From assembly GCA_903873705.1 (NCBI GenBank), contig CAIQPK010000048.1, positions 62,001-126,000 of the forward strand: a stretch of DNA of 64,000 bases, given 5' to 3'. The translations under genes were made by a program, and so were the position numbers. Shown here piece after piece: positions 31,496-37,797 of this stretch (positions within the stretch are counted from its first letter, which is position 1; the number at the start of each line of letters is the position of its first letter). Below the pieces are notes generated by a model that worked only from the letters and a program-made list of their open reading frames with translations, was not told the DNA's origin and searched no databases. This DNA comes from an uncultured Acidobacteriota bacterium (GTDB lineage Bacteria; Acidobacteriota; Terriglobia; Terriglobales; Acidobacteriaceae).

Positions 31496-31744
31496 AGCGG
31501 CTCCCTTCAGTCCCCACGCCCCGGCCGGGTCAATCGCCATAACGATATTACTGTAGTCATCCGTGCTGCAGCCTGCCGGCCTCAGGCGAACGACCGGCGG
31601 TTAGCTGGGACACATAGCGCCGCCCGCGACACGGTCTGTACGGCGCCGAATGCTGGCCGGTATTCGTCGTTACCGTGGCCGGTGGTCGCGCGAACGATTG
31701 TTCTTTTTGGAGAGGGCTCGGCTAAAGCCTCATAATTGAGGGGC
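31496..31744. promoter_or_regulatory. Divergent intergenic region between pca operon and carotenoid cluster
   Basis: About 249 bases separate the pcaH and desaturase starts, so both operons must be driven from here. No regulator gene is adjacent and no clear palindrome was found; a GGAGAGGG purine run at 31709-31716 is too far from the desaturase start to be its ribosome binding site. Confidence 0.45.
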
Positions 31745-33274
31745 ATGACGCAGAAAAAAATAGCCGTGATAGGTGCAGGCCCAGGAGGGTTGGCAGCAGC
31801 GATGCTGCTTGCCCACAAGGGCTTCAGCGTTGACGTGTTCGAAAAGGCGCCCACCATCGGAGGCCGAAGCGCCGAGGTCGTTCTCGACGACTACCGCTTC
31901 GATCTCGGACCGACATTCCTCATGATGAAGTTCGTGCTTGACGAACTTTTCTCCAACGTCGACCGCTCGCTTTCGGACTATCTCGATTGCCGGCCGCTCG
32001 ATCCGATGTATCGCCTGCAGTTCCCCGCGAAGTCGATGCTGGTCCACTCGGACCCCGACAAGATGCACGCAGAAATCGAGCGCTGCTTTCCCGGCGAGGG
32101 CGCGGGTCTGCGCCGGTTCCTCAAGCGGGAGGAAGTACGTTTCCGCAAACTCTATCCCTGCCTTCAGCACGCCTACGGCAGCGTGACCGATTTTCTCAGC
32201 CCCGCGCTGCTGGCTGCAGCCCCGCACATCGCCGTCGGACGCTCCTTATACGACGTGCTCAGCGGCTACTTCAAGGCTGAAGAACTCCGCCTCGCCTTCA
32301 CGTTTCAATCAAAGTATCTCGGTATGACACCCTGGGACTGCCCCGGCTTGTTCGCCATGATTCCCTACACCGAGCACGCCCACGGCATCTATCACGTGAT
32401 GGGCGGATTGAACCGCATTCCTGCCGCCTTCGCCAAGGTCGCCCAGGAAGAAGGTGCACGCATCCACACGTCGTGCGCTGTCGCCCGCGTGCTGGTGAAA
32501 AATGGCAACACCACCGGCGTGGAGCTTGAAAACGGAGAGCAGCTCGCCTTCGACGAGGTCGTGATCAACGCCGACTTCGGCCACGCAATGAGCACGCTTT
32601 TCAAACACGAGGCGCTCGGCAAGTACAAAGCCGCCTCGCTCCGCGAGCGTGACTACTCCTGCTCAACCTTTATGCTGTACCTCGGTTTGGACCGCGCCTA
32701 TCCGGATATCGAGCATCACATGATCGTCTTCGCGGAAGACTACCGAAAGTGCCTGAATGACATCGCGCAGCACAAGATCGTCTCCGAAGATCTCTCCATC
32801 TATGTGCGCAACGCAGCGCCGCTTGACCCCGGCTGCGCCCCGCAGGGCCACTCGGCGATTTACATCCTCGCGCCCGCACCCAACAACACCAGCGGCATCG
32901 ACTGGGAACAGCACAAGGCCGCTTATCGTGACAGGATTCTCGACATCCTTCAGGAACGCACGCCCTACGGCGACCTGCGACCGCACATCCAGCGCGAGTT
33001 GATCATCACGCCATCCGACTGGGAGAAAAAGATGTCAGTCTTTCTCGGCGCGACCTTCAACATGGGTCACGGCTGGAATCAAATGCTCTATCTCCGCCCC
33101 CACAATAAGTTCGAGATGTTCGGCAACACCTACCTGGTCGGCGGAGGCACGCACCCCGGCAGCGGACTTCCCACCATCTTCGAGTCGGCTCGCATTTCCT
33201 CCAACTTGATCTGCGACAAGTACGGTGTTCCGCACCCTGCATCCAGGGCATTCGACGAAATTGCATTGACCTGA
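31745..33274 (+). CDS. crtN: CrtN/CrtI-family carotenoid desaturase (C30-type likely)
   Basis: 509-residue FAD-dependent desaturase. The N-terminal GAGPGGLAAAMLL and GGRSAEVVLDDYRFDLGPTFL motifs and the C-terminal GTHPGSGLPTIFESARISSNLI are hallmarks of the phytoene/diapophytoene desaturase family. I choose the ATG at 31745; a TTG at 31736 is also possible and neither has ideal spacing to a Shine-Dalgarno. The stop overlaps the aldehyde dehydrogenase start (TGATG). Genome context (aldehyde dehydrogenase, second desaturase-like oxidase, glycosyltransferase, CrtO-like acyltransferase) points to C30 carotenoid chemistry rather than C40. The exact substrate, diapophytoene or squalene-derived, is inferred only. 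Confidence 0.8.
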   Translation: MTQKKIAVIGAGPGGLAAAMLLAHKGFSVDVFEKAPTIGGRSAEVVLDDYRFDLGPTFLMMKFVLDELFSNVDRSLSDYLDCRPLDPMYRLQFPAKSMLVHSDPDKMHAEIERCFPGEGAGLRRFLKREEVRFRKLYPCLQHAYGSVTDFLSPALLAAAPHIAVGRSLYDVLSGYFKAEELRLAFTFQSKYLGMTPWDCPGLFAMIPYTEHAHGIYHVMGGLNRIPAAFAKVAQEEGARIHTSCAVARVLVKNGNTTGVELENGEQLAFDEVVINADFGHAMSTLFKHEALGKYKAASLRERDYSCSTFMLYLGLDRAYPDIEHHMIVFAEDYRKCLNDIAQHKIVSEDLSIYVRNAAPLDPGCAPQGHSAIYILAPAPNNTSGIDWEQHKAAYRDRILDILQERTPYGDLRPHIQRELIITPSDWEKKMSVFLGATFNMGHGWNQMLYLRPHNKFEMFGNTYLVGGGTHPGSGLPTIFESARISSNLICDKYGVPHPASRAFDEIALT

Positions 33275-34713
33275 TGACCATGCTGAACCGCATCGAAGTC
33301 GCGCGTGGTGCCCAGCAAGAGTGGGCGATGCTGCCGGTACACGAACGAGTGAAGCGGCTCAAAAGTCTCCGCCGCGCCGTCGCGGCCTTAATAGACCCTT
33401 TCGTTGCCGTGATCTCAGAGGAAGTGGGTAAGCCGCCGCTGGATGCCCTCACCGGGGACGTCATGGTGACGCTGGAACACTTGCGCTATTGCGAACATCA
33501 CGCCGAAAAGCTCCTCCGCCCCCGAAAAGTGGGAAAGCCGTTCCTGCTCTATCACGACACCGAATTCGAAGAGCTGATGGAGCCGCACGGTGTCGTGCTC
33601 GTTCTCGCTCCGTGGAATTATCCTCTCCAGCTGGCGATGGTTCCCATGACCACGGCGCTTTTCGCAGGCAACGCTGTCGTGATGAAGTGTTCCGAGCGAA
33701 CGCCGATGACCGCCGCGCTGATTCGCGAAGTCTGCGAAGCGGCCAGTCTCCCTGAAGGGCTGGTACAAGTCTGTTGCGATCCGCCTGAAGTAGCGTGCGC
33801 ATGGGTTGAAGCGAAACCCGACATGATCTTCTTCACGGGATCGAGCGCTAACGGAAAGGCCATTGCACGGCGCGCTGCCGAACTCTTTATCCCGGTTACT
33901 CTTGAGCTTGGCGGTAAGGATGCGTCCGTCGTCTTCGCGTCCTCCCACCTGCAACGCACGGTAGAAGCCGTGGTTTACGGCGCGTTTTCCAACGCTGGGC
34001 AGGTGTGCGTCGGCATCAAGCGCGTCTACGTTCAGAGAGAAATTCACGATGCCTTCGTCCAGGCCCTATGCCTTCGCGCGCAACAACTTCGAACCGGGAC
34101 AAGCCTGGAGTCCGACATGGGACCCGTTCGCTTTCCGTCCGTAAGATCGTTGCTCGCGGAACAGATCGATGACGCGCTCGCGCGCGGAGCAACGCTTCAT
34201 ACTCCGTGGAACCGGACAACCGATACCGTGCCGCCGCTGATCCTCACCGACGTCCCGCGAGCAGCGCGGCTGCTCACGGAAGAAACCTTCGGGCCGGTCC
34301 TTTGCATCCAGATCTTCGAAGATGAAACCGAAGCCATTGCGCTCGCCAATGACTCCGACTTCGCACTGAGCGCAAGCGTGTTCACACAGGACCAAGCCCA
34401 GTCCCAACGCATCGCACGCGCGCTGGCAGCCGGCAGCTGCGCCATCAACGATGCGGTGCGCAACATTGGCAACCCCTACGCAGCCTTTGGGGGCAACCGC
34501 GCCAGCGGACATGGTCGCTACCATGGCGGCAGCGGGTTCCATGCCTTTTCCCGCATCAAGACCGTGATGAAGCTGAAGCATCTCAAGCCAATCGAGCGGC
34601 ACTGGTTTCCGTTCACCGCAAAAACTTTTCAGCAGCTGAAAGGCATTCTTCAGTTTCGACATTCGCCTTTGCCCTTGTGGAAGAGACTGAAGTACCTGCC
34701 TCGCAGCCGATAG
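33274..34713 (+). CDS. Aldehyde dehydrogenase, carotenoid-aldehyde type (AldH/CrtNc-like)
   Basis: 479-residue NAD(P)-dependent aldehyde dehydrogenase of the class-3 type. PWNYPLQL, FFTGSSANGK, catalytic Glu211 in LELGGKD and nucleophile Cys245 in GQVCVG are all present, and the C terminus is hydrophobic/basic as in membrane-associated class-3 enzymes. Its ATG overlaps the stop of the desaturase gene by one base. In staphyloxanthin-type pathways such an enzyme oxidises 4,4'-diaponeurosporen-4-al to the carboxylic acid; that role is inferred from the flanking genes. A general fatty-aldehyde dehydrogenase is the alternative. Confidence 0.85.
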   Translation: MTMLNRIEVARGAQQEWAMLPVHERVKRLKSLRRAVAALIDPFVAVISEEVGKPPLDALTGDVMVTLEHLRYCEHHAEKLLRPRKVGKPFLLYHDTEFEELMEPHGVVLVLAPWNYPLQLAMVPMTTALFAGNAVVMKCSERTPMTAALIREVCEAASLPEGLVQVCCDPPEVACAWVEAKPDMIFFTGSSANGKAIARRAAELFIPVTLELGGKDASVVFASSHLQRTVEAVVYGAFSNAGQVCVGIKRVYVQREIHDAFVQALCLRAQQLRTGTSLESDMGPVRFPSVRSLLAEQIDDALARGATLHTPWNRTTDTVPPLILTDVPRAARLLTEETFGPVLCIQIFEDETEAIALANDSDFALSASVFTQDQAQSQRIARALAAGSCAINDAVRNIGNPYAAFGGNRASGHGRYHGGSGFHAFSRIKTVMKLKHLKPIERHWFPFTAKTFQQLKGILQFRHSPLPLWKRLKYLPRSR

Positions 34714-34739
34714 CCCTACCCAGCATTCCGGAGGTCCAG

Positions 34740-36257
34740 TTGAACGCAGTAACCAGAACAGCGGGCAAGCGAGTGGTCGTCATCGGCGCCGGAATCGGCG
34801 GCATGACCGCAGCCATTCAGCTCGCGCGTGCAGGATTCTCCGTAGACCTCGTCGAAAAGAACGAGCGGCTGGGCGGCAAGCTGAACCTTCATCAGGAAGC
34901 CGGTTTCAGCTTCGACCTCGGCCCGTCGATCTTTACCCTGCCGCAGATGTTTCGTCCTGTATTTGAAGGCGACGGCCGCAAGCTCGAGGACTACGTCACG
35001 CTTCAACGCGTCGACCCACAGTGGCGCAATTTCTTCGAAGACGGCACCGTCATCGACCTCTGGGAAGACCCCGCGCGCATGCATCAGGAGTTGCAGCGCT
35101 TTGGCGCCGCCGCCATCGAAGACTACGACGCCTTCCTGCGCTACTCACGCCTCCAGTACGACATCGTTGAACGCGGCTACTTTGCTCGCGGGCTCGACAC
35201 GTTGTGGCAGTTCATACGCTTCTACGGCCTCCGCGGTGGTCGCGGTCTGGACTACACCAGCACCATGGCTGGCGGAATTGCCAAACGCGTGCGCAATCCT
35301 TACCTGCGCGACATCCTGGAATACTTCATCAAGTACGTCGGCTCCTCGGCCTACGACGCCCCCGGCTTCATGAACCTGATGCCGCACATCCAACTCGAAT
35401 TCGGTCTCTGGTACGTGTCGGGCGGACTCTACGAGCTGGCGCGCGCGTTCGAGCGAAGACTTGAAGAGACCGGCGTTCGCGTTCACCTCAATCAAACCGT
35501 CACGCGCATCGACAAGAACGGCGGCCACGTGACAGGCATCGCCGCCACGGGCCCAGACGGTTCGGAGACTGCCTTCACCGCCGACTTCGTCATCTCCAAT
35601 ATGGAAGTCATCCCGGCCAGCGAACGCCTGCTCAATGAGTCGCCGCGAGTCATGAAGAAGCTCAGCCGATTCGAACCGGCGTGCTCGGGAATTGTCCTTC
35701 ACCTCGGCCTCAACCGCACTTATCCCCAGCTTGCCCATCACAACTTCTTCTTTTCGCAGAATCAGAAGGCGCACTTCAACCGAGTCTTTCGCGAGAAGCG
35801 CCTACCGGACGATCCCACGATCTACCTCGTTGCCCCCACCCGCACCGACCCCTCGCAGGCGCCCGCGGGTTGCGACAACATCAAGATCCTGCCGCACATT
35901 CCTTATCTCAATGACGAACATCCCTACACGCGTGAAGACTGCGTCGCACTCAAAGAAGCCTGCCTCGACAAGCTCGAGCGAATGGGCCTAACCGACCTGC
36001 GAAAGCACATCGTGGTTGAAGACTTCTGGACGCCGTTCGACATCGAGGCGCGCTACCTTTCCAATCGCGGCTCGATCTACGGCGTCGTCTCGGACATGCG
36101 CCGCAACTTCGCCTTCAAGGCTCCGAAAAGAAGTGACCGCTACGACAACCTCTTCTTCGTCGGCGGCAGCGTGAACCCCGGCGGAGGCATGCCCATGGTG
36201 CCGTTGTCCGGCCCGCACGGTGCGCGCATGGTAATGGAACCGGCCGGAGTGGCGTGA
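34740..36257 (+). CDS. CrtP/CrtN-like carotenoid oxidase or desaturase
   Basis: 505-residue FAD-dependent enzyme of the CrtI/CrtN/CrtP superfamily, paralogous to the first desaturase of the cluster. GAGIGGMTAAIQLARAGFSV, GGKLNLHQEAGFSFDLGPS and the C-terminal NPGGGMPMVPLSGPHGARMV are visible. The start is a TTG at 34740 with a strong GGAGG 5 bases upstream; an upstream GTG at 34677 would overlap the previous gene and lacks such a site. In the staphyloxanthin pathway CrtP oxidises the terminal methyl group of diaponeurosporene, which would feed the adjacent aldehyde dehydrogenase. Which of the two paralogues desaturates and which oxidises cannot be settled from sequence alone. Confidence 0.8.
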   Translation: MNAVTRTAGKRVVVIGAGIGGMTAAIQLARAGFSVDLVEKNERLGGKLNLHQEAGFSFDLGPSIFTLPQMFRPVFEGDGRKLEDYVTLQRVDPQWRNFFEDGTVIDLWEDPARMHQELQRFGAAAIEDYDAFLRYSRLQYDIVERGYFARGLDTLWQFIRFYGLRGGRGLDYTSTMAGGIAKRVRNPYLRDILEYFIKYVGSSAYDAPGFMNLMPHIQLEFGLWYVSGGLYELARAFERRLEETGVRVHLNQTVTRIDKNGGHVTGIAATGPDGSETAFTADFVISNMEVIPASERLLNESPRVMKKLSRFEPACSGIVLHLGLNRTYPQLAHHNFFFSQNQKAHFNRVFREKRLPDDPTIYLVAPTRTDPSQAPAGCDNIKILPHIPYLNDEHPYTREDCVALKEACLDKLERMGLTDLRKHIVVEDFWTPFDIEARYLSNRGSIYGVVSDMRRNFAFKAPKRSDRYDNLFFVGGSVNPGGGMPMVPLSGPHGARMVMEPAGVA

Positions 36258-37327
36258 GGATCGGCGTGGCGGCAGCGCTTTGCCTTTGCGGACTTGCTTG
36301 TGGCTGGCTGCTGTTCCGGCACATGACGGTCGTTCCGCAAGTCACAGGCGAAACGCCTCCGACGCCGATCACCATCATCATTCCTGCACGCAACGAAGCC
36401 ATAAACCTGCCACGCCTTCTGCAGTCGTTGGAGGACACGGCGCCCGCCCTCGAGGTGATCGTCGTCGACGACCATTCCACCGATGACACGGCACGGATCG
36501 CACAAGCGCACGGCGCGCGTGTGTTGCCCTCGCAGCCGCTCCAGTTGGGCTGGACGGGCAAGACCTGGGCGTGCTGGCAAGGCGCCAATGCGGCGACGTC
36601 CACCCTCCTGCTTTTTCTTGATGCCGACACCTATTTTGCACGTGGCGGGTTAGCGCGGCTGCGCTGCTTCTATCGAACGCACCACACCGGTGCAGCGCTT
36701 TCGGTGTTGCCGTATCACGCGGTGGCGCGGCCCTACGAGCAGCTTTCGCTCTTCTTCAATCTCCTCATGGCGGCCGGCGCTGGTGGCTTCAGCGGACTGG
36801 AGCAGCCAAAACTTTTTGGCCAGTCGTTGCTCATCGATCGCGAGCTTTACTTCAGGGCCGGCGGCCATCAGGCAGTACGGCAGCAGGGCTTGGAAAACCT
36901 GCATCTCGCCTCGCAGGTCGCCGCCGCGGGCGGTGCGCTGGTCACCGCGGTTGGACGCGGAACACTGGAAATGCGCATGTTTCCTGAGGGGTACACGCAG
37001 TTGCTGCAAGGCTGGAAGCGGGGGTCTGCCGACGGCGCCGCAGCAGCAACGCCGCGCTCATTGCTGCTCAGCATGGCCTGGATCGCCAGCGCAACCGTCG
37101 CGTTCATCGCGCTCGCCATAAGCCGTGGAAGCTCAGGCATTGCGGCGGCAATCTATCTGCTGGTTGTCGCACAGGTCTATCGGGTCGCACGGCGCATCGG
37201 CGGCTTTCGCTGGACGACGGCGGTCCTCTACCCCTTGCCGCTCTTGTTTTACTTCGCCGTCCTCGGCCTCTCGGCAGGGTCCCGCAGGCTCGGCAAGCCG
37301 TCCACGTGGAAGGGTCGCCAGCTGTGA
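36254..37327 (+). CDS. Family 2 glycosyltransferase (CrtQ-like)
   Basis: 357-residue membrane-anchored GT2. An N-terminal TM (residues about 5-22) precedes the catalytic domain with ITIIIPARNEAINLPRLL, VVDDHSTDDT, LGWTGKTWACWQGA and LFLDADTYF (DXD). Three C-terminal hydrophobic segments follow. The GWTGKxWA motif is shared with CrtQ-type diaponeurosporenoate glucosyltransferases and hopanoid GTs. Its GTG start overlaps the preceding stop (GTGA), implying coupled translation. In this context it would glycosylate the carotenoid carboxylic acid; the sugar donor is inferred to be a UDP-hexose. Confidence 0.82.
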   Translation: MRIGVAAALCLCGLACGWLLFRHMTVVPQVTGETPPTPITIIIPARNEAINLPRLLQSLEDTAPALEVIVVDDHSTDDTARIAQAHGARVLPSQPLQLGWTGKTWACWQGANAATSTLLLFLDADTYFARGGLARLRCFYRTHHTGAALSVLPYHAVARPYEQLSLFFNLLMAAGAGGFSGLEQPKLFGQSLLIDRELYFRAGGHQAVRQQGLENLHLASQVAAAGGALVTAVGRGTLEMRMFPEGYTQLLQGWKRGSADGAAAATPRSLLLSMAWIASATVAFIALAISRGSSGIAAAIYLLVVAQVYRVARRIGGFRWTTAVLYPLPLLFYFAVLGLSAGSRRLGKPSTWKGRQL

Positions 37328-37797
37328 AGGCATGGATCGCCATCGCCAACGTCTTCGGATGTGCAACGCTACAACTCGGCCTCGCCCGCCTTTTTATTTC
37401 CTTACCCGGCAATATCTTTGCCGCAGATACACGGCCCTTCAGAGAGCTGCGGAGCGAAGTAGCCTTCTACCGGCACATACTGCGCATCAGGACGTGGAAG
37501 AAAAAGCTTCCCGACGGAGCCTCATGGGTTGGCGGAAAGTTCTCCAAGCAACGGATGCACTCCCTGAATGCGGCCTATCTCCGTCACTTCGTTATCGAGA
37601 CCCGTCGCGGTGAATCCGCTCACTGGGTCGCGATTCTCTGCGCGCCCGTGTTCTACCTATGGAACCCCGCCTGGGCCTGCTGGGTCATCACGCTTTACCT
37701 GATGGCGAGCAACCTGCCGTGCATCGTTGCGCAACGCTACAACCGCTTTGCAATCGAGAAAATCATCTCGTATCGGCTGCAACGCAGAGAGCCCTGA
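37324..37797 (+). CDS. crtO: Glycosyl-4,4'-diaponeurosporenoate acyltransferase (CrtO-like)
   Basis: 157-residue membrane protein. The core matches the CrtO acyltransferase family: RTWKKKLPDGASWVGGKFSK, a conserved YLRHFVIETRRGESAHW, then a hydrophobic stretch ending NLPCIVAQRYNRF. Two to three membrane segments are seen. A GTG at 37324 overlaps the GT2 stop (GTGA) and has GAAGGG 8 bases upstream, the same junction type as the gene before; a GTG at 37306 is an alternative. It would esterify a fatty acid to the sugar of the glycosylated carotenoid acid, the last step in staphyloxanthin-like synthesis. It closes the five-gene cluster and converges with selO after 21 bases. Confidence 0.82.
   Translation: MKAWIAIANVFGCATLQLGLARLFISLPGNIFAADTRPFRELRSEVAFYRHILRIRTWKKKLPDGASWVGGKFSKQRMHSLNAAYLRHFVIETRRGESAHWVAILCAPVFYLWNPAWACWVITLYLMASNLPCIVAQRYNRFAIEKIISYRLQRREP

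Follow-up and report, generated by a model that had tools for sequence, protein, structure and literature searches.

Genes of the operon

We found five open reading frames at positions 31745-37797 of the window (the whole 64,000-nucleotide stretch that was analysed), all on the + strand (Table 1). The initial annotation had read them as crtN, an aldehyde dehydrogenase gene (ald), crtP, a GT2 gene and crtO, and each was matched to its family. It had also described coupled junctions, and these are borne out: crtN and ald meet at TGATG, and crtP/GT2 and GT2/crtO each at GTGA. With crtP starting at TTG 34740, which is preceded by GGAGG, 26 bases separate it from ald. The crtP frame is open from GTG 34677, and the TTG start is therefore uncertain.

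Table 1. Genes of the predicted carotenoid operon (positions in the window)
Gene	Position	Strand	Product and start	Predicted function
crtN	31745..33274	+	509 aa, ATG	squalene-route 4,4'-diapo-carotenoid desaturase
ald	33274..34713	+	479 aa	carotenal to carotenoic acid step
crtP	34740..36257	+	505 aa from TTG 34740	terminal-methyl oxidase of diapo-carotenoids
crtQ-like GT2	36254..37327	+	357 aa, GTG	carotenoic acid glycosyltransferase
crtO	37324..37797	+	157 aa from GTG 37324	CrtO-family acyltransferase of the glycosyl ester

CrtN and CrtP matched crtI_fam (TIGR02734; cut-off 238 bits) with 443 and 358 bits, respectively. Ald scored 373 bits against Aldedh (PF00171) and has the motifs LELGG (residue 210) and GQVC (residue 242). 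It retains a tail that in relatives leads into a TM and DUF2141 domain, and ends short of that domain. GT2 scored 69.6 bits against Glycos_transf_2 (PF00535) and has the motifs VVDDHS and DAD. In the NCBIfam profile search, no model scored above its cut-off for GT2, and no fitting equivalog was found for Ald or GT2. The functions given for these two proteins are predictions from neighbourhood and weak identity. A promoter scan gave a single promoter-like site, at 31708-31736, where chance would give 1.4, and a terminator scan gave six terminator-like sites, where chance would give 6.6.

CrtO is a true member of PF18927, the family of glycosyl-diaponeurosporenoate acyltransferases (89.7 bits, family cut-off 27.3). 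An alignment of 28 CrtO sequences had 15 invariant columns. The AlphaFold model (pLDDT 89.9) had no match in the PDB at E 0.001 with Foldseek (best E 1.2), and a search of the PDB with the sequence profile gave nothing better than E 0.26. The best VIA-align Z score, 6.9, is under the tool's meaningful level for helical bundles. These comparisons establish neither a new fold nor a known one. No CrtO relatives were found in viral contigs. With a PF18927 crtO beside crtN, ald, crtP and GT2, the full tailoring set proposed for an acylated glycosyl ester is present.

Predicted squalene supply

The initial annotation had noted the absence of crtM or a squalene synthase gene from the window and had pointed to HpnCDE as an example of a possible source of the backbone. 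Both points held. There is no gene of the squalene/phytoene synthase family (PF00494) in the window, and a PF00494 profile search over the whole genome (assembly completeness 100%) gave two matches, HpnC and HpnD, both on contig C44. Neither crtB nor crtM was among these matches. HpnC scored 301 bits (cut-off 250) and HpnE 400 bits (cut-off 283). HpnD scored 225 bits, below its curated cut-off of 278.6; HpnD is nevertheless the model that fits it best, and in six further relatives that have hpnCDE or hpnD, HpnD scored 216-262 bits, likewise under the cut-off. The hpnE gene adjoins hpnC and hpnD, with overlapping reading frames, in a coupled hpnC-hpnD-hpnE unit. The genome therefore has a predicted source of squalene and neither CrtM nor CrtB, with an HpnD that falls below the curated cut-off.

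The genome also encodes a squalene-hopene cyclase (Shc, 450 bits, contig C51) and four polyprenyl synthetases. Because HpnCDE occurs in genomes without such an operon, its presence can be accounted for by hopanoids alone. One such genome, without the operon and with HpnCDE, is G006. Among 11 genomes carrying the same operon type, three (67-84% complete) had no PF00494 match. Granulicella mallensis X5P3, which has the same operon, has hpnD and a squalene-synthase-like gene; hpnC gave no match there, and the hpnD locus lacks hpnE.

Placement of the two desaturases

We compared the desaturases with CrtN, CrtP and CrtI in two trees, as the initial annotation had proposed, and neither fell in the C40 CrtI group. 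The 74-row tree took in 27 of the best 80 loci among 202 relatives, and four of nine cluster-B loci. For the 29-row tree, the CrtP rows, another eight CrtN rows and a single CrtI-like row were dropped. CrtN fell in a 33-row group with Azospirillum and Methylomonas CrtN in the larger tree (support 100/100) and in a 25-row group in the smaller one (100/99), together with CrtN of A. brasilense Sp7 in both. Since A. brasilense Sp7 CrtN acts downstream of squalene (PMC13274349), we assign the CrtN here to the squalene route. In the 74-row tree, CrtP belonged to a group of 29 rows that also held the CrtP of Methylomonas and S. warneri (100/99). Searched by sequence against the PDB, CrtN had 4dgk and 4rep as its best matches.

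These results argue for a C30 pathway. In a C40 carotenoid or apo-carotenoid pathway, phytoene would be desaturated in the manner of CrtI. The match of both desaturases to the broad crtI_fam model fits such a pathway, as do the four polyprenyl synthetase genes, with which GGPP may be made. However, the PF00494 search left no candidate for crtB, and the operon's two desaturases are the only CrtI-family matches above cut-off in the genome. In both trees they are distinct, with high support, from the CrtI of Pantoea, Thermus and Roseobacter. An AU test rejected a grouping of this CrtN type with CrtI from which the Azospirillum type was excluded (p 0.005; the groups for this and the following AU test were chosen after the tree had been seen). 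On these grounds we rejected the C40 reading, which we consider extremely unlikely, and the C30 assignment of the initial annotation is upheld. Of the refuting conditions named there, those that could be checked on the sequences all failed to speak against it.

The label "staphyloxanthin-like" was correct for one end of the pathway. CrtP is 48.6% identical to S. warneri CrtP and 37.5% to Azospirillum CrtP, GT2 is 32% identical to S. warneri CrtQ and 28% to the Azospirillum GT, and CrtO is 28% identical to S. warneri CrtO. The label did not hold for the start, where CrtN is of the squalene-route type and CrtM is lacking. In a strict staphyloxanthin pathway, an HpnD-like enzyme would act as CrtM and make dehydrosqualene (4,4'-diapophytoene), and the monoacid 4,4'-diaponeurosporenoic acid would be glycosylated and acylated. 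An HpnD below its NCBIfam cut-off would suit this pathway, as would a CrtP, GT2 and CrtO nearer to the staphylococcal proteins than to their Azospirillum counterparts. In contrast, CrtN is 43% identical to A. brasilense Sp7 CrtN and only 31% to that of S. warneri, and was not placed with staphylococcal CrtN. An AU test rejected a group that unites the two and omits the Azospirillum type (p 0.003). The staphylococcal CrtN is a single sequence on a long branch, and its position as sister of the other CrtN (89/55, 74-row tree) is uncertain. The fit of HpnD to its own model, its place in a coupled hpnC-hpnD-hpnE unit and the gene content of G. mallensis X5P3 also argue against this pathway. We regard the strict staphyloxanthin pathway as improbable.

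Distribution of the operon

The operon is not peculiar to its source organism; it occurs widely within the family and in other groups as well. The host had been taken for an acidobacterium, and this was supported; it belongs to the Granulicella/Bryocella group, and G. mallensis X5P3 and Bryocella elongata are relatives from the same genus. Cultured relatives that carry the operon include these two, Edaphobacter lichenicola and Occallatibacter savannae. The five-gene set was present in 19 of 26 other acidobacterial, 18 of 39 verrucomicrobial and two of three Bdellovibrio-like loci examined. We conclude from its recurrence in acidobacteria (19 of the 26 loci) that the set is not a chance assembly. 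Ald was missing from four of the 26. The best identities in the other acidobacterial loci were 63-72% (CrtN), 48-58% (Ald), 68-81% (CrtP), 45-55% (GT2) and 34-49% (CrtO).

We also considered whether the operon is a mosaic put together recently from genes of Azospirillum and Staphylococcus. This idea is weakened by the wider distribution and by the trees. The acidobacterial CrtN and CrtP both sit with sequences from Verrucomicrobia, Bdellovibrio-like bacteria and methanotrophs, and the combination is therefore old and shared, not one assembled within this lineage. Within the host's genus, 10 genomes had the operon type described here, nine had an Azospirillum-type operon with another acyltransferase, and none had both (10 and nine of 28 genomes; hypergeometric 0.007, with kinship ignored). 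It is slightly more likely than not that the operon is a stable composite of the two well-known C30 routes, in which a squalene-consuming CrtN is joined to staphyloxanthin-type CrtP, CrtQ and CrtO. Within one acidobacterial genus this composite would have been exchanged for an Azospirillum-type operon with an unrelated acyltransferase and an equivalent pigment. The supply of squalene would be exchangeable as well (mostly hpnCDE, a squalene-synthase-like gene in G. mallensis X5P3).

Predicted pathway and comparison with known systems

Based on these results we suggest, with considerable confidence, that the five genes encode the dedicated steps of a squalene-route pathway to a C30 carotenoid, with an acylated glycosyl ester as its product. 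HpnC, HpnD and HpnE would make squalene, on which squalene-hopene cyclase would also draw, and carotenoid output would be linked to the pool that serves hopanoids. CrtN would desaturate squalene as far as 4,4'-diapolycopene or an intermediate close to it. CrtP would oxidize the terminal methyl groups to aldehydes, and Ald would oxidize the carotenoid aldehydes to acids. GT2 would then form a glycosyl ester of the carotenoic acid, and CrtO would attach a fatty acid to its sugar. We infer the order of CrtN and CrtP, the number of acid ends (one or two), the sugar and the acyl chain, as we do the reactions themselves. The most likely product is 4,4'-diapolycopene-4,4'-dioic acid in the form of an acylated glycosyl ester, which would colour the membrane pink or red and serve as an antioxidant.

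The staphyloxanthin-type core implied by the initial annotation is not favoured. The closest relatives with known function, namely Methylomonas, the genus Rubritalea and, as regards the route, Methylobacterium and Azospirillum, suggest a core of diapolycopenedioic acid rather than 4,4'-diaponeurosporenoic acid. In the Methylomonas crtN-ald-crtNb cluster, the genes crtN, ald and crtP/crtNb are ordered and oriented as they are here, and in the better-covered loci CrtN is about 50-53%, Ald 37-41% and CrtP 55-58% identical. The roles of crtN, crtNb and the aldehyde dehydrogenase gene are known there, and the product core is described as diapolycopenedioic acid (PMC10745290). Methylomonas squalene is reported to come from a single squalene synthase, hpnCDE not having been detected in the work described (PMC10745290). 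The same crtN was present in 15 of 18 methanotroph loci, and ald lay beside crtP in 16. In contrast to the operon here, none of the 18 loci, several of which are short contigs, had GT2 or CrtO.

All five gene types are found in Rubritalea marina (L155), with ald on the opposite strand and crtN apart from crtP. The pigment is known from another species, R. squalenifaciens, in which diapolycopenedioic acid 2-acyl-xylosyl esters are described (PMC3967232). Conceivably, the carotenoid product of the operon is a C30 carotenoic acid and the substrate of GT2 and CrtO is a different lipid, in which case the pigment would carry no glycosyl ester. The methanotroph loci would be in keeping with such a division, as would GT2-CrtO pairs without crtN or crtP in the stretch examined (L091, L092 and a Picosynechococcus PCC 7003 plasmid). 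However, the frames are coupled in the operon, the linkage to crtN and crtP recurs in acidobacteria and Verrucomicrobia, and the Rubritalea pigments are acyl-glycosyl esters. A separate lipid substrate is very unlikely, and we retain the acylated glycosyl ester as the predicted product.

The staphyloxanthin cluster crtOPQMN shares homologues of CrtP, CrtQ and CrtO (S. warneri plasmid proteins as reference). The operon here differs in having no CrtM, a CrtN of another type and ald inside the operon. Azospirillum and Methylobacterium clusters have a CrtN of the same wide group and hpnCDE at a separate locus, but their CrtP is from a different group and their acyltransferase is unrelated (PF01553). 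In A. brasilense Sp7, deletion of crtNPOQ is reported to cause squalene accumulation and deletion of hpnCDE to abolish squalene and carotenoid (PMC13274349). The Methylobacterium pigment is described as an acylated glycosyl ester, and deletion of the glycosyltransferase gene leaves free carotenoic acid; for M. extorquens AM1, the authors' own search gave no CrtO homologue (PMC10448405). The best reading is that the pigment is nearer to those of Rubritalea and Methylobacterium than to staphyloxanthin. We regard the operon as a further example of a known pigment pathway, with no new kind of chemistry. The two operon types in one genus offer a natural comparison of PF18927 and PF01553 acyltransferases, which probably catalyse one and the same final step.

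Many soil acidobacteria are pink, and the operon supplies them with a concrete gene set and a predicted pigment structure. It is also carried by Occallatibacter savannae AB23 (L115), which has been described as a carotenoid producer (cited in PMC7661733).

Operon and squalene genes in the host genome

The assembly comprises 4.18 Mb in 94 contigs (listed completeness 100%, contamination 1.56), with the window at positions 62001-126000 of contig C48. The acidobacterial host named in the initial annotation was correct; same-genus genomes include Granulicella mallensis X5P3 and Bryocella elongata. The reading frames of the five-gene unit overlap at three of four junctions, as had been claimed. The ald-crtP gap is 26 bases, provided that crtP starts at TTG 34740. 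Genes on the opposite strand flank the operon, pca genes (aromatic breakdown) on the 5' side and selO on the 3' side. We found no tie between these neighbors and the pigment.

We found that the genes for a squalene backbone lie elsewhere in the genome, as the initial annotation had suggested. A whole-genome search gave two PF00494 matches, HpnC and HpnD, and no CrtB or CrtM; hpnE lies on the same contig (C44). A zinc alcohol dehydrogenase-like gene precedes hpnC, an arrangement known for subdivision-1 acidobacteria (described in PMC5462960). The weak HpnD score is a lineage trait, because HpnD at seven other loci (seven proteins scored) was also under the cut-off (216-262 bits). The genome contains one squalene-hopene cyclase (450 bits) and 11 CrtI-family matches, of which the two exceeding the cut-off are both in the operon.

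Features of the window genome and of related loci (C, contig of the window genome; L, locus from a relative)
Feature	Location	Strand	Assignment
Five-gene unit	window 31745-37797	+	Pfam and NCBIfam family matches
Gene 1 (crtN)		+	CrtI-family oxidoreductase (Pfam/NCBIfam)
Gene 2 (ald)		+	aldehyde dehydrogenase (Pfam/NCBIfam)
Tail of ald (in fused relatives, the part before the DUF2141 extension)	window 34560-34713
Gene 3 (crtP)		+	CrtI-family oxidoreductase (Pfam/NCBIfam)
Gene 4 (GT2)		+	family-2 glycosyltransferase (Pfam/NCBIfam)
Gene 5 (crtO)		+	PF18927 (CrtO)
hpnC	C44		HpnC, 301 bits (cut-off 250)
hpnD	C44		HpnD, 225 bits (under cut-off 278.6)
hpnE	C44, after hpnC/hpnD, frames overlapping		HpnE, 400 bits (cut-off 283)
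hpnD retained, squalene-synthase-like gene elsewhere; carotenoid operon intact	L197:3237-4184; L198:3793-5073		G. mallensis X5P3
GT2-CrtO pairs	L091:2577-4227; L092:7785-9429		two acidobacterial genomes, another family
GT2-CrtO pair	L105:5757-7342		Picosynechococcus PCC 7003 plasmid
Desaturase adjoining squalene/phytoene-synthase-family gene	L079:5028-7404		CrtI group; another genus of the family
Ald-DUF2141 fusions (ald gene)	L063, L067, L093, L094, L101, L112-L120, L122, L126, L128, L129

Desaturases and predicted product

We found that CrtN and CrtP of the window, which had been annotated as C30-type enzymes, were both apart from the CrtI group in a 74-row tree. CrtN fell in a 33-row group (support 100/100) with CrtN of Azospirillum, Gluconobacter, Methylomonas, Verrucomicrobia and Bdellovibrio-like bacteria. 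CrtI of Pantoea, Thermus and Roseobacter formed a separate group (100/100) with one acidobacterial CrtI-like row. A 29-row tree gave the same split (CrtN group of 25 rows, 100/99). S. warneri CrtN was sister to the 33-row group, on a long branch with weak support (89/55). With groups picked after the tree, AU tests rejected joining the window CrtN type, without the Azospirillum type, to staphylococcal CrtN (p 0.003) or to CrtI (p 0.005). All CrtN, staphylococcal included, may still form a single group. CrtP grouped with Methylomonas and S. warneri CrtP (29 rows, 100/99; long branches flagged), and Azospirillum-type CrtP was outside this group.

In Azospirillum brasilense Sp7, whose plasmid cluster was our reference, deletion of hpnCDE or crtNPOQ is reported to abolish the pigment, and deletion of crtNPOQ causes squalene to build up (PMC13274349). 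In Methylomonas, crtN, crtNb and an aldehyde dehydrogenase yield diapolycopenedioic acid (PMC10745290). Methylobacterium extorquens AM1 makes a 2-O-acyl-glucosyl ester of this diacid, which remains free when the glycosyltransferase is deleted (PMC10448405); Rubritalea squalenifaciens produces 2-acyl-xylosyl esters of it (PMC3967232). Given these reference functions, we favor diapolycopenedioic acid over the staphyloxanthin core as the more likely predicted core. That the pathway, as predicted, belongs to an already known type is well supported.

Distribution of the operon and of squalene genes

Within the genus, 28 genomes were compared (window genome counted), and 10 of them had the window operon type; G011 was counted from CrtO alone on a short contig, and G026 from crtN and the beginning of crtP. 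Nine others contained the Azospirillum-type operon, with a PF01553 acyltransferase (identity to Azospirillum: CrtN 52-56%, Ald 45-49%, CrtP 61-63%, acyltransferase 35-42%, GT 43-50%). Nine had neither, and none of the 28 had both (probability of zero overlap by chance 0.007, kinship ignored). The composite gene make-up and the proposed operon exchange within one genus are the parts that specialists may find useful.

Among 11 carriers of the window type (10 same-genus genomes and G029), six had hpnC, hpnD and hpnE together (the window genome, G004, G008, G018, G024 and Bryocella elongata G027). G026 had two adjacent PF00494 matches; G011, G023 and G029 (67, 84 and 84% complete) had no PF00494 match. 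In G. mallensis X5P3, no hpnC or hpnE was found at the hpnD locus and no HpnC-like match elsewhere. A squalene-synthase-like gene at another locus scored 94 bits to TIGR01559 (under the cut-off of 286.75); PMC5462960 describes the same situation in a different strain of G. mallensis. hpnCDE is not a specific mark of the pigment, because G006 has these genes and neither operon type.

Ten of 61 relatives contained PF18927, as did 14 of 396 genomes sampled from the phylum. Outside the core set, weak PF18927 matches (33-70 bits) occurred in five genomes of acidobacteria (L096-L100), with no crt neighbors found around them. A profile scan of genome contigs with the CrtP alignment gave 202 relatives, of which 80 were retained: by title, 39 verrucomicrobial (one just "bacterium"), 20 acidobacterial, 18 methanotroph/proteobacterial and 3 Bdellovibrio-like. 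Among the matches listed, the full five-gene set was found in 19/26 acidobacterial loci (pooled from several searches, repeats removed, window not counted), 18/39 verrucomicrobial, 2/3 Bdellovibrio-like and 0/18 methanotroph/proteobacterial loci. The last had crtP (18), ald (16) and crtN (15), and neither GT2 nor CrtO among the matches listed. Gene absences are upper limits because many contigs are short. In acidobacterial loci L114 and L119, crtN was not found next to the remaining operon genes. Occallatibacter savannae AB23, which has the operon (L115), is cited as a carotenoid producer in PMC7661733.

Related gene arrangements

No crtN or crtP match lay beside the three GT2-CrtO pairs within the stretch examined. 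Such lone pairs may decorate other lipids or cooperate with genes elsewhere. The L079 gene pair is possibly a C40 route.

Across 27 acidobacterial loci, counting the window, the operon Ald was fused C-terminally to DUF2141 (PF09912) in 18, and a hydrophobic segment resembling a signal or anchor joins the two parts. Three fusions were confirmed with Pfam and the others with a home-made profile. The remaining loci had Ald alone (5, including the window), DUF2141 alone (3) or neither (1), and PF09912 had no match in the window genome. DUF2141 also occurs within the Azospirillum and Gluconobacter clusters, and is reported next to crtG in Sphingomonadales (PMC5989583). It may be an exported helper in carotenoid handling.
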